Shown here: piece after piece, positions 3,486-62,193 of the stretch
How positions within the stretch are numbered: the stretch's first letter is position 1
Layout of the letters: the number at the start of each line of letters is the position of its first letter
From: Schaalia sp. HMT-172
Lineage (GTDB): Bacteria > Actinomycetota > Actinomycetes > Actinomycetales > Actinomycetaceae
Assembly (NCBI RefSeq): GCF_030644365.1
Contig: NZ_CP130058.1
Location: forward strand, 1,860,001-1,924,000
Direction of reading: 5' to 3'
Length of the DNA: 64,000 nucleotides
Position numbers and translations under genes: made by a program
Notes under the pieces: generated by a model
What the model was told of the DNA's origin: nothing
Seen by the model: only the letters and a program-made list of their open reading frames with translations
Database searches by the model: none

Positions 3486-3613
3486 TGACACCGCATCGGA
3501 ACAGCCGAGGTCGACGCCATGCCGGGAAGGGGACACCGAATCATGTCCCGAAAACGCCACGAGACATTAGTGATGCTTGTTACACTCTCGTTAGTCGCAT
3601 TCAAGGAGCCGAC

Positions 3614-4795
3614 ATGGCGAGCACCTCCGCTTTCATCCCCCACGACCCCGCACAGGCGCCCACATGTTCCTGGCGGGGCGTCGCCGTCGATCCCACGCAC
3701 TCCTTCTGGCCAGTCCCTTCCTTGAAGCTTGTCCTCTCCCTCATGTCCAGGTATCGCCTCACCGTCATGCGCTGGCGGCTCTGCGCCGGATCGTCGTGCC
3801 TCCTGTCGGTCCCAGGCTTTCCTTTCGACACCGGAGCCGGGGCACATCCCTCCTCCCTATCCGCCCCCGGCGCCGACCTCGCGCGCACTCAGTCCGCTCG
3901 CGACGCCATGCACCAGGCTCCGCGCATGCGCGGCTACTACTCCGACGCCAACATCCGCCACCTTGTCGCCTACGCGGCGGCAGGCAACATCCGCCTCATC
4001 CCCGAGATCTGTCTCCCCAGCCACGCACCCGAATCCCCCTCGGCGGTCGTGCCCGCCCCGGCCTCGTTCGGCCTCATCGAGGCCGCCGTCCACCACGCGT
4101 GCGACCTGTTCCCTTCCCCGGTCTTGTCCATCGTCCAGCAGGGGGGAGCGCCGCGAGAGGAGGCCGCCGCTCGCTCACGCTCCGAGGGCAAGGCTCCGTC
4201 GCGCACACCCCTCGACGCCGCCCTGCGAGCCCTGCGCTTCCACGGGCGAAGGGCCGCACTGCGAGAGGACCCGCTCACCTCGACCCTCCTTCCGGCGGAG
4301 GGGAGCATCATCCGAGCGCGAACCATCCCGGGGACAGACCGGAAGTCCGGGCGATTCCCTTCCACCCCGCGGATGCTCTCGCTGACACTTGATACGCCGG
4401 GGGACGGCGGCGAGGCCACAGACGCCGCGAACCTCGCGGCGGCGCACCACATGCACGAGGCACTCCCCCGCGCCCTGCGCGCCGCCGACGTGCAGGGGAT
4501 CGAGGCACTCCTCCAACCGGCGTCGGCCATGGGACCGACCACCCTCATCCGGCAGCTCCTCCCCCGCCTCATCGTCGTCGCCGAGGTCGGCTGGCACGGG
4601 GAGCGCACACTGCCATGGGACCGCCTGCGCCCCATCATCGAGCGCGAGAGCGCGCACCTGGGCCGCGCGATTCCCCGTCGCAGCGCCGCGCGCATAGTTG
4701 AGGGCCGCGCACCACAAGCAGGTACGCGGCCCGTGCCCCCTAGCGGGGCGAGGTTCGGAGCAGGCATGGAACCCGCCCCACTAGGCTCATTATGA
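3614..4795 (+). CDS. GH20 hexosaminidase-like protein lacking catalytic residues (pseudoenzyme)
   Basis: A 393-residue protein starting at an ATG with AAGGAG five bases upstream. Its segments line up in order with the GH20 beta-N-acetylhexosaminidase barrel. FWPVPSLKLVLSLMSRYRLT matches the FFPV...MARYKLNVxHWHL start. GYYSDANIRHLVAYAA plus IRLIPEICLPSH matches GYYTxExIRxxVxYAA...VIPEIDMPGH. LFPSP matches the strand before HIGGDE, and FHGRRAALRED matches the GRRxxxWDE strand. The tail LLPRLIVVAEVGWHGE matches the PRLxAxAExxW end. The catalytic Asp-Glu pair is absent (SIVQQGGAP instead), as is the Trp-Asp-Glu. There is no N-terminal GH20b domain and no signal peptide. The frame is open with GC-rich third positions, so it may be a maintained pseudoenzyme and not a decayed gene. 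It converges on the MerR gene with a 6-bp overlap. Confidence 0.68.
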   Translation: MASTSAFIPHDPAQAPTCSWRGVAVDPTHSFWPVPSLKLVLSLMSRYRLTVMRWRLCAGSSCLLSVPGFPFDTGAGAHPSSLSAPGADLARTQSARDAMHQAPRMRGYYSDANIRHLVAYAAAGNIRLIPEICLPSHAPESPSAVVPAPASFGLIEAAVHHACDLFPSPVLSIVQQGGAPREEAAARSRSEGKAPSRTPLDAALRALRFHGRRAALREDPLTSTLLPAEGSIIRARTIPGTDRKSGRFPSTPRMLSLTLDTPGDGGEATDAANLAAAHHMHEALPRALRAADVQGIEALLQPASAMGPTTLIRQLLPRLIVVAEVGWHGERTLPWDRLRPIIERESAHLGRAIPRRSAARIVEGRAPQAGTRPVPPSGARFGAGMEPAPLGSL

Positions 4796-59457: not shown

Positions 59458-60006
59458 ATGTTCCTCCCCCAACGACTCCCCGGCCAAGACTGGCTCGGCG
59501 TCGTCGTCGCCATCCCCGAACCCTGGGTCTCACAGCTGACTGACCTGCGCCTACGCCTCGGCGACCTCGCCGGCTCGCGCATCCCCGCGCACATCACCCT
59601 CATGCCGCCTACGCCCGTCGCCCGCGACGCGCGCGCCGACGTCATCGACCACCTGCGCACGATCGCCGCCCGGCACGCGCCCTTCCGCATCACCCTATCC
59701 GGCACAGATTCGTTCCGGCCCATCTCCAACGTCGCCTTCATGACCCTGGCCGAGGGCGCCGACGCCTGCATCGACATCGCCGAGGAGATCCGCTCCGGCC
59801 CCCTCGACCACGAGACGCGATTCCCCTACCACCCGCACGTGACGCTGGCACAGGACGTCGACGACATCGCCCTGGATCTTGCGCTCGACATCGGCGCCAC
59901 CGTCAAGGCCTCGTGGATCGTCCCCGGCTTCCGCCTGGACCGCATCGACCCCTCGGGCATCTACTCCTCGATGGCACTCTTCGACTTCGACGCCTCCGGA
60001 CACTGA
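59458..60006 (+). CDS. 2'-5' RNA ligase superfamily protein
   Basis: A 182-residue protein with both HxT motifs of the 2H phosphoesterase fold, HITL (residue ~48) and HVTL (~130). Members act as cyclic phosphodiesterases or RNA ligases on RNA ends. The ATG at 59458 is the start nearest the conserved region; upstream open frame lacks a ribosome site. The 3' side opens into a long gene-free region. Confidence 0.85.
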   Translation: MFLPQRLPGQDWLGVVVAIPEPWVSQLTDLRLRLGDLAGSRIPAHITLMPPTPVARDARADVIDHLRTIAARHAPFRITLSGTDSFRPISNVAFMTLAEGADACIDIAEEIRSGPLDHETRFPYHPHVTLAQDVDDIALDLALDIGATVKASWIVPGFRLDRIDPSGIYSSMALFDFDASGH

Positions 60007-60061: not shown

Positions 60062-60174
60062 CCGATCCCTGTCCACCTGCTTTCCACGCGGCACGATCCC
60101 TGTCCACCTGCTTTCCACGCGGCACGATCCCTGTCCACCTGCTTTCCACGCGGCACGATCCCTGCCCACCCGCT
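60062..60174 (+). repeat. 31-bp tandem repeat
   Basis: About 3.5 copies of a 31-bp unit beginning gatccctgtccacctgcttt and ending in ccacgcggcac, starting at 60064, 60095, 60126 and 60157. The unit is not a multiple of three, so it is non-coding. It begins within 60 bp of the preceding stop codon. Confidence 0.88.
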
Positions 60175-60474
60175 CATCGCACGCTCATCACCCGCTGGTG
60201 TTCCGGGCGCCGGAAGCCCCGGCCGTGGGGCCGGACTGCTTGGTGTGCCCGTGGGCGGCGGCCCGCCCGCGAGCCGTCCGCGCCGCGAGCTTCGCTCGGT
60301 GCGTCGTCTCGAAGCCCGGCCAGGCCCCGCCACCGCCCACGGGCACCGCAGCCAGGCCTTCCTGTCCCTCCGGCGCCCTCCACACCGGCGCTCTCCTTAC
60401 TGCGAGTAGCCAGCCCAAGCCACACCACCATCTGCAAGCACCGCCAGGACCCACAACCCCATCTTCGGGGCACC

Positions 60475-60580
60475 ATCCGGATAGGTTGCGCGCACGCGGA
60501 TAGGTTACGCACATCCGGATAGGTTATTAAGCTATCCAGATGCTCACTACCTATCCAGATGTTCGTTTCCTATCCGGATG
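60475..60580. repeat. Head-to-head array of CGGATAGG sites at 19-bp spacing, copy 1
   Basis: CGGATAGG occurs at 60478, 60497 and 60516 in one orientation. Then TATCC(A/G)GATG occurs at 60533, 60552 and 60571 in the other. Spacing within each half is exactly 19 bp. The centre ATTAAGC separates the halves. Confidence 0.9.
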
Positions 60581-60641
60581 CGTATTGTCCCCGGGGGCAG
60601 CCCCCATCATCGACAAGCGCCAAGGCCAGCCCTACCCATTC

Positions 60642-60744
60642 CGCATGCAATTCCCTCGCGACTACTTCAAATTCTGAAGTCACACTGTTGGAATTGCAAC
60701 GTTTCCAGCGATTGTCGAAACTTCACTCAAGTGAATTGCATGCG
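60642..60744. repeat. Structured element with long outer stem, copy 1
   Basis: Outer stem CGCATGCAATTC (60642-60653) pairs with GAATTGCATGCG (60733-60744). Inside lie three hairpins: ACTTCA-AATTC-TGAAGT (60664-60680), GTTG/CAAC (60687-60700) and GTTTC/GAAAC (60701-60721). The element looks like a multi-branched RNA or a DNA cruciform. The strand is unknown. Confidence 0.65.
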
Positions 60745-60944
60745 AAATTTTGGAAAACAGTGCCACAGCCCACACAACAGGCCGCCCGCAGACATGAAAG
60801 GCCGTAGCTGCCCGCAGACACGAAAGGCCGTGGCCCCGGGCCAGATGCCCCCAGAGACAGTCCCCCCATCGACGAGCACGGCAGCCAGGCCACACCATCA
60901 CCTACAAGCACCGCCAGGCCCCACAGCCTCCTCTTCTGGGCACC

Positions 60945-61069
60945 ATCCGGATAGGTTGCGCGTACGCGGATAGGTTATGCACATCCGGATAGGTTATTAA
61001 GCTATCCGGATGCTCGTTACCTATCCAGATGTTCGCTTCCTATCCGGATGCTCGTTTCCTATCCGGATG
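60945..61069. repeat. Head-to-head array of CGGATAGG sites at 19-bp spacing, copy 2
   Basis: CGGATAGG occurs at 60948, 60967 and 60986, then TATCC(G/A)GATG at 61003, 61022, 61041 and 61060. Spacing is again exactly 19 bp. This copy has one extra site in the right half compared with copy 1. Confidence 0.9.
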
Positions 61070-61124
61070 CGTATTGTCCCCGGGGACACCCCGTCATCGA
61101 CGAGCACGGCAGCTAGGCCCCATC

Positions 61125-61237
61125 AATTTCGCACGTAATTCCCTCGCGACTACTTCAAATTTTGAAGTCACACTGTTGGAATTGCAACGTTTCCAGCGAT
61201 TGTTGAAACTTCACCCAAACGAATTACGTGCGAAATT
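61125..61237. repeat. Structured element with long outer stem, copy 2
   Basis: AATTTCGCACGTAATTC (61125-61141) pairs perfectly over 17 bp with GAATTACGTGCGAAATT (61221-61237). The inner hairpins are conserved: ACTTCA/TGAAGT, GTTG/CAAC, GTTTC/GAAAC. Relative to copy 1 the stem has CACGT where copy 1 has CATGC, with matching changes on the opposite arm. Confidence 0.68.
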
Positions 61238-61365
61238 TTGGAAAACAGTGCCACAGCCCACACAACAGATCGCCCGCAGACATGAGAGGCCGTGGCCTCC
61301 CGCAGACACGAAAGGCCGCGGCCCCGGGCCAGATGGCCCCGGGCCACGGCCTCGTGCACGAAACG

Positions 61366-62193
61366 TCAGATGTCGTAGGTCACCGAGACGGGCGCGTGAT
61401 CCGAGAAACGCTCCGCGTACTCGTCGGCGCGACCGATCTCGAAGGAGCTCGCACGCTCCCCCAGCGCGGGCGTCGCGTACTGATAGTCGATGCGCCAGCC
61501 CGCGTTGTTGACGAAGGCCTGGCCGCGCCACGACCACCACGAGTAGGGGCCCTGCACGTCACCGGCCAGGTCGCGCACGGTGTCGCGCCATCCCTCGTCC
61601 ACCCACTGGTTGAGGAAAGCGATCTCCTCGTCGAGGACGCCCGCGCGCTTATTGTGGTTCGGCTTCCAGTTCTTAATGTCGGCCTGCGAGCGAACGACGT
61701 TGAAGTCGCCGCACACGAGCGACGACATGCCACCGGCAGCCTCCTCGGCGAGCAGCTCGGCCATGCGGGCCCCAATGCGAGGCAGGTGCGCCATCTTCGC
61801 CTCCTGCTTGGGCGTATCCTTCTCGCCCGAGTGGAAGTAGGCCGAGACGACGCGCACGAGGGCATTCCTACCGTCGGGGCGCACCACGGCCTCGAGCCAC
61901 CGGCCCGAATCCACGTCCGTCTCCGCATCGTCGAGGATCACGCGAGGCCCACCTTCCAGGCTCGCGCGCCCGCGCCGCGCGGCCACACCCACGCCCGCGC
62001 GCCCCTTAATACGGCAGGGAACCCACACGCTCTCCCAGGCCTCGCCCATGATCTCGCGGGAAATCTCCTCCGGCGCACGCACCTCCTGCATGAGCAGCAC
62101 GTCTGTACCGCTCCCCTCCAGCCAGTCGAGGAAGCCGCGCTTGTGGGCGGCGCGGATCCCGTTCAGGTTCACGGTGGTCACCGTCAGAGTCAT
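61366..62193 (-). CDS. xth: Exodeoxyribonuclease III
   Basis: A 275-residue AP endonuclease/3'-5' exonuclease of base-excision repair. Motifs: VTTVNLNGIRAAHKRGF, LLMQEVRAP, VVSAYFHSG, VCGDFNVVRSQADIKNWKPN and the C-terminal catalytic SDHAPVSV. Length is normal. It is transcribed toward the repeat region and ends at its edge. Confidence 0.95.
   Translation of the reverse strand: MTLTVTTVNLNGIRAAHKRGFLDWLEGSGTDVLLMQEVRAPEEISREIMGEAWESVWVPCRIKGRAGVGVAARRGRASLEGGPRVILDDAETDVDSGRWLEAVVRPDGRNALVRVVSAYFHSGEKDTPKQEAKMAHLPRIGARMAELLAEEAAGGMSSLVCGDFNVVRSQADIKNWKPNHNKRAGVLDEEIAFLNQWVDEGWRDTVRDLAGDVQGPYSWWSWRGQAFVNNAGWRIDYQYATPALGERASSFEIGRADEYAERFSDHAPVSVTYDI

Follow-up and report, generated by a model that had tools for sequence, protein, structure and literature searches.

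A dispersed intergenic repeat of Schaalia with paired end-words that may be read by a protein

Small dispersed repeats of bacteria, among them ERIC, RUP and Correia, are about 100 to 200 bp long and have stem-loop transcripts, and most have inverted ends, TA ends and target duplications (PMC2229807, in the portion of that paper drawn on here). The same portion leaves the way in which such repeats move to future work and, RUP excepted, reports links between their ends and IS as either not sought or not found (PMC2229807). The repeat described here, from Schaalia sp. HMT-172, is like the enterobacterial 127-bp repeats known as ERIC, IRU or RU-1 in its size range, its intergenic sites, its inverted ends and its many copies, a likeness of description and not of sequence homology (PMC2229807, same portion). 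ERIC is enterobacterial and has TA ends and target duplications, whereas the Schaalia element is without a target duplication, and ends paired in two versions of a word, as in this element, are not mentioned for ERIC in that portion of the source (PMC2229807). RUP of the pneumococcus and the Correia/NEMIS MITEs share with it a length of about 100 to 200 bp, terminal inverted repeats and dispersal, but TA targets and an IS with similar ends are on record for RUP, while neither such an IS nor a target duplication was found for the element (PMC2229807, same portion). No description of this repeat was found in the open-licence literature searched.

Two further systems were compared. REP and REPIN sequences, with RAYT (TnpA-REP), are also extragenic palindromes in many copies in the partial accounts used here, but REPs are 20 to 40 bp and the element is longer. 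REP elements are located at the 3' sides of genes. The Y1 transposase (PF01797) was matched in 5 of 14 control genomes and in none of the 35 genomes of the genus, which rules out a REP/RAYT system. The central inverted half-sites of the element, with their 6-bp spacer, and its outer inverted arms recall the core-and-arm layout of tyrosine-recombinase att sites and RIT. The host genome (G000) has only two integrase-family (PF00589) matches against 97 dispersed copies; these are taken as XerC/XerD by length and score, and the linked recombinase genes of an RIT or integrase att site were not found, so this candidate was rejected. A phage or plasmid origin was rejected too, no match having been found. 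A match in another genome (L162 in G096), with an E value of 0.02 only, lies in a stretch with a ParA-like ORF and an integrase match about 1.2 kb away.

The window, a stretch of 64,000 nucleotides from the host chromosome, contains two copies of the element, each in one unit of a tandem duplication (Table 1). A duplicated structured segment of about 100 nt had been noticed here in a preliminary description, and both copies proved to be 105 bp. The duplicated blocks are 91% identical and sit between an ORF ending at 60006 on the plus strand and one ending at 61366 on the minus strand, by eye a putative 2'-5' RNA ligase-like and a putative exonuclease III-like gene respectively. Between the two elements there are 10 differences in 105 bases, 5 of these falling in the arms (24 bases), and their interiors are 0.94 identical. 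The double change described for the outer stem is real, with T-A/C-G and C-G/T-A pairs altered in both arms, and direct reading also bears out an alternative pairing of 9 nt, TGCAATTCC with GGAATTGCA (60690-60698), in copy 1 only. Of three inner hairpins proposed, the left and central ones recur across the family and no clear third was seen by eye. Free variation of the loop in the ACTTCA/TGAAGT hairpin was too strong a statement from two copies, which differ there at one base. What had been taken for a feature of two copies is one element of about 97 in the genome.

Table 1. Positions in the window of the two element copies, their parts and the duplication that holds them, with the members of the 83-bp family.
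Feature	Position	Strand	Sequence or remark	Basis
Copy 1, 105-bp element	60641..60745	+	end-words TGC/TGC	direct sequence reading and family search
Left 12-bp end-word of copy 1	60641..60652	+	CCGCATGCAATT; first base departs from consensus T	
Right 12-bp end-word of copy 1	60734..60745	+	AATTGCATGCGA; inverted	
Left inner hairpin of copy 1	60664..60680	+	ACTTCAAATTCTGAAGT	
Central palindrome of copy 1	60686..60701	+	TGTTGGAATTGCAACG; portion recurring in other genera	
Copy 2, 105-bp element	61129..61233	+	end-words CGT/CGT	direct sequence reading and family search
Left 12-bp end-word of copy 2	61129..61140	+	TCGCACGTAATT	
Right 12-bp end-word of copy 2	61222..61233	+	AATTACGTGCGA	
Left inner hairpin of copy 2	61152..61168	+		
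Central palindrome of copy 2	61174..61189	+		
Tandem duplication unit 1	60415..60852	+	holds copy 1	
Tandem duplication unit 2	60885..61340	+	holds copy 2	
83-bp family members			L381, L382, L383, L384, L391, L399, L400	

Other short repeats are found nearby. Ahead of each copy (60474-60582 and 60944-61072 of the window) is an array of GGATAGGTT and AACCTATCC units, which run both ways; such arrays also adjoin the element copy at position 1770367 of the host genome (about 2690-2820 of locus L120). By eye, short tandem repeats of CGGCACGATCCCTGTCCACCTGCTTTCCACG lie upstream of the element at about 60070-60165 of the window.

A covariance model built from 42 copies (A2) gave 149 matches in the host genome. 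These fall to 97 places when the opposite-strand match of the same place is dropped, so that the dispersed intergenic repeat occurs at at least 97 places, a lower bound because the scoring covered 150 of 416 candidates. By DNA search, 46 matches were found across the genome. Within the genus, 12 of the 35 genomes have matches by covariance model (10 of 35 by DNA search) and the rest have none. At the level of the family, with stricter filters, A2 matched 13 of 213 genomes, 12 from the genus and one from another.

The core is mostly 105 bp: among distinct arm pairs, 169 are of this length, 31 are 106 bp, 11 are 107 bp and 5 are 104 bp. Each end of the core is formed by the 12-bp word, the two being inverted relative to each other; between them come a left hairpin, the central palindrome CGTTGGAATTGCAACG and then a right part that varies. 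More weakly conserved sequence extends beyond the core for about 16 bp on the left (TGGTTCCCCA and the following bases) and for about 11 bp on the right, giving an element of about 130 bp. As to ends of the ERIC type (5'-TA-3'), the outer boundary is too blurred for the terminal bases to be named. By eye, some copies have outer flanks (GGTTCCCCA side) that seem to face the wrong way round for their core, as an inversion of the core between its ends would produce; these are the copies at 151571, 1791811, 648304, 629187, 2038281 and 1837698 of the host genome.

The element is lodged between genes and is rare in divergent gaps, which hold promoters. Against gene calls predicted by a codon-usage script and not curated, none of the 97 copies is inside a gene and one overlaps a gene end by 12 bases. 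Among intergenic regions of at least 100 bp, the element occupies 32 of the 47 convergent gaps, 46 of the 112 tandem ones and 5 of the 47 divergent ones; because the stretches were picked as containing elements, these figures are informative only as a comparison between contexts. The tandem regions hold copies in the sense orientation in 35 cases, antisense in 10 and mixed in one (p 0.00025 for 35 against 10), and the distance to the upstream predicted gene is often more than 100 nt. At the orthologous sites 151571 and 153120 the element is present in G000, G020, G022 and G026 and absent from G005, G006, G013 and G023.

This placement might reflect a chromosomal binding or structuring site, at which a host protein binds the arms and central palindrome for nucleoid organisation, termination or replication, the copies being functional and not selfish. 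The far higher occupancy of convergent than of divergent gaps and the sense orientation in tandem gaps would fit such a role, as would the presence of the central palindrome in Bifidobacteriaceae and Clostridia above a rough chance estimate, in some cases near DnaA-box-like repeats or tRNA genes. Set against this, copy number differs greatly between related species, 22 to 25 of the 35 genus genomes have no match, depending on the search, and copies are present or absent at orthologous sites. The avoidance of promoters fits neutral insertion equally well, and we regard a functional chromosomal site as unlikely.

There is also a strand bias along the contig, 44 of 59 copies being on the plus strand in its first half and 26 of 38 on the minus strand in its second. 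With an origin close to contig position 1, the convergent regions would divide into 22 leading and 10 lagging. GC skew is too weak for placing the origin, and a cause in replication only was set aside. The copy at 148614 of the host genome (about 3600-3740 of locus L096) has a DnaA-box-like TTATCCACAG within a few bases of it and may be close to a replication feature.

The ends were compared in 209 copies from the host genome and its relatives (212 before identical rows were removed). They are one 12-bp word in either of two versions, TCGCA-TGC-AATT or TCGCA-CGT-AATT, and in 190 of the 209 copies both ends have the same version: 96 are TGC/TGC, 93 are CGT/CGT and one is CAT/CAT. One copy is a straight mix of TGC and CGT, against about 81 predicted for ends that vary independently within each genome. 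The models and patterns used to collect copies presuppose these arms, allowing up to 3 mismatches in each, which means that those with badly decayed ends are missing from the set; a TGC/CGT mix would still be recovered. Taken alone, the host genome has agreeing left and right words in 86 of 97 copies (54 TGC, 31 CGT, one CAT), one right word being unreadable.

Covariation in a larger set of homologues, on which the preliminary description had staked its fold, is real and very strong, but it is confined to positions 6 and 8 of the word. Of 208 copies with full flanks, cut to 141 below 90% identity, the two ends pair at these positions in 132 and 133, against 68 and 70 expected. The linkage of the two variable positions within one arm is about as strong as that across arms. 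The arm coupling is a two-state TGC/CGT switch and not free base-pair covariation. Weaker coupling at -1 (68 against 54 expected, p 0.008), 7 (p 0.04) and -11 (p 0.003) is not convincing with 38 positions tested. Positions -2, 13, 14 and 15 vary yet pair below expectation in the 141 copies, and the variable position -5 is uncoupled between the arms. Mismatches in the arms of the 209 copies comprise 21 G.T and 17 A.C, so there is no clear signature of an RNA strand. Coupling at the word only, together with these near-even mismatches, argues against general selection on a stem and for a paired 12-bp word.

It is conceivable that the arms match without selection, two word alleles in the pool of copies being spread by gene conversion and by palindrome-templated repair that copies one arm to the other. 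Such homogenisation accords with the finding of only two common words, matched arms, genome-specific frequencies and switches in place with the interior retained. The mismatch at pair 13, next to the word, where the right arm has G in 97 and A in 43 of the 141 copies, has nevertheless not been homogenised, and most flanking positions are uncoupled. Conversion tracts would therefore have to stop at the word. We hold this explanation to be improbable.

The same ends occur on a second family. Of eight full-length matches to an 83-bp element, both arms were recovered in seven, and these seven (Table 1) are exactly 83 bp and TGC/TGC. By eye, their interior is unrelated to that of the 105-bp family and is without the central palindrome. 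There are also single forms of 73 bp and of 63 bp. The lengths 63, 73, 83 and 105 fall near multiples of 10.5 bp, which would set both words on one face of the DNA, but this is suggestive only, there being few independent lengths and other spacings having been set aside by eye. Those dropped were arm pairs of 34, 41, 90 (three), 94 and 223-327 bp (four), in each of which, by eye, one arm is genuine and the other is a near-match inside the element or next to it; the arm-pair analysis also left out ten pairs of 400 bp or more.

The use of the two words differs between genomes. Exact arms of the TGC and CGT versions number 107 and 65 in G000, 39 and 125 in G001, 12 and 12 in G005, 18 and 6 in G006, 4 and 2 in G013, 112 and 40 in G020, 33 and 98 in G022, 16 and 52 in G023, and 16 and 71 in G026. 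With counts halved, use is heterogeneous among these nine genomes (chi2 86, p 4e-15). Nine sites were compared with relatives, and orthologous copies were found at eight, of which five have both TGC/TGC and CGT/CGT. The cleanest switch is at 159208, where the interior is 0.88-0.92 identical and G000 alone among four genomes has TGC. At three of the five switched sites the interior is merely 0.71-0.85 identical, and for that reason these may have been replaced by another copy. At the window site, where compared interiors are 0.77-0.94 identical, G000 has one TGC and one CGT copy, G001 has CGT twice, G022 has a CGC/CGT intermediate and G023 has TGC.

The predicted folds of the element are stable. 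On either strand and for either copy, none of 200 shuffles was as stable, with z scores of -4.4 (plus) and -3.7 (minus) for copy 1 and of -6.2 and -4.8 for copy 2. With three helices, 95.8% of cells in A2 are paired, and neither its covariation score nor its count of cells changed on both sides was reached by any of 500 shuffles. The two word pairs account, however, for 33 of these 39 cells. Five pairs have a change on both sides, a number that 40 of the 500 shuffles reach, and 145 shuffles reach the observed number of pair types. Compensating changes occur at two pairs of the left hairpin and one of the central hairpin. Mismatches of the inner hairpins in 171 copies of 105 bp are G.T more often than A.C (57 against 14 in the central and 34 against 21 in the left), the central G.T count being inflated by a subfamily with a shifted pairing register and the copies being related. 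At the gathering score, Rfam found nothing near either copy; at E values up to 5 it gave 11 weak matches, all outside both copies and mostly on the GGATAGGTT arrays. An Rfam structured RNA was rejected on this basis.

The element may instead be a structured RNA, transcribed, with the closing stem and inner hairpins selected as a fold, perhaps in the 3' regions of mRNAs, where an action of the fold has been proposed for ERIC and Correia repeats (PMC2229807, in the portion drawn on). The stability against shuffles, some compensation in the left and central hairpins, a covariation score higher than in any shuffle, the excess of G.T in the inner hairpins, the sense orientation to the upstream gene in tandem contexts and the pairing arms of different sequence retained by members in other genera all speak for it. 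Yet the strong covariation of the stem is one linked two-state switch, pairing is lost beyond 12 bp, the arms lack a clear wobble asymmetry, the fold energy of the minus strand is comparable, and the 83-bp family has the same ends around an unrelated interior. To these are added the lack of an Rfam match over the copies and the frequently long predicted distance from the upstream gene. A selected fold had been put forward, in the form of an RNA or of protein-bound DNA; of these, the DNA and protein branch is favoured, and an RNA fold has little likelihood. The compensation in the inner hairpins, their G.T excess and the pairing arms of other genera leave open an option of RNA or of hairpin DNA.

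The reading to which we give a probability of about 0.6 is that this DNA repeat belongs with elements of the MITE/ERIC type, being short, non-coding and non-autonomous, and that its paired end-words are putative DNA sites for one protein. The repeat is dispersed, is present or absent at orthologous sites, is bounded by the 12-bp inverted word and has this word in common with a second family. Like MITEs, it is short (105 or 83 bp) with terminal inverted repeats. One trans-acting protein, a transposase, recombinase or nucleoid protein, would bind both words and would require the same version at both ends. Such a requirement would cause the arms to switch from TGC to CGT together and one version to become prevalent, by drift, across a whole genome. 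The central palindrome and the hairpins inside the arms would make up the interior of the 105-bp family and be dispensable for the end-word itself.

Two marks of a MITE proper were looked for and not found. No offset or length of flank stands out as a target-site duplication, a mark of ERIC also, among the combinations tried in 208 copies. No autonomous element with exact ends was found in the host genome, since the 97 copies account for 88 of the 89 exact forward arms and for all 84 reverse ones, and the lone arm outside belongs, by position, to an 83-bp variant; other genomes were searched in part. The element is consequently not filed as a MITE proper. The partner protein that would bind the ends was not found. 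Three observations count against the repeat with protein-read ends: a purely selfish element does not predict the sense bias in tandem gaps, ordinary transposition does not explain the switch of both ends at 159208 with the interior kept, and compensating changes are present in the left and central hairpins.

The element of G034 (L079), another genome of the genus, is identical in sequence to a S. vaccimaxillae locus and has arms that differ from the word. A second covariance model (R2), made from 20 sequences of which two had N padding, matched 20 of 396 genomes of the order at E 0.05, five of them in the genus, and several low-scoring matches look like chance. In some matches, from another genus of the family (g3) and from Bifidobacterium (g54), the central palindrome is retained and the outer arms, long and still matching each other, differ in sequence from those of the repeat, as in TGTCCAAATCGGTGACAAAGG or ACACGCCCGGCCTGCACGGACTCTGACAC; one from Bifidobacterium (L153) equals the B. 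pullorum locus L234. An exact pattern for the symmetric core found 85 stretches in the genome collection, where chance would give about 4 by a rough estimate of our own and not one derived from a tool, and 55 of the 80 loci listed are in Bifidobacteriaceae. A tRNA gene is within 400 bp of the core at 17 of the 80, and some core loci are among DnaA-box-like repeats. It is not certain that core-bearing loci outside the genus are the same system as the repeat.

A symmetric palindrome close to AAATCGTTGGAATTYCAACGATTT recurs in Bifidobacterium, Pseudoscardovia and Clostridia (L170-L249), and at many loci such palindromes are among short repeats specific to the locus or genome. The core adjoins a tRNA-Tyr/Thr/Met cluster at seven Bifidobacterium loci. 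Eighteen viral contigs have the same core (L255-L272), and in several it is surrounded by short repeats, either inverted or direct, such as units of ACTATTCCG or TTGGGTGAC. Pfam searches of 10 ORFs near viral cores gave no shared family. When ORFs around 98 core loci were clustered by sequence comparison, no cluster had more than 7 loci among the 25 listed, and these clusters look like orthologous neighbourhoods.

A more far-reaching proposal, which we hold tentatively and think rather doubtful, is that the end-words are mutually exclusive specificities and that both ends are rewritten together in place, shifting a whole genome. This would imply recognition of paired ends with a heritable two-state specificity, the central palindrome being a site common to other actinobacteria, bifidobacteria and clostridia.

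A pair of copies with compensating changes is not in itself a sign of an RNA fold; once 209 copies are compared, the strong part of the signal narrows to one paired DNA word. Should the lock-step switch prove real, the ends of a repeat and a putative protein that binds them could be tested directly for coordinated evolution in an actinomycete.
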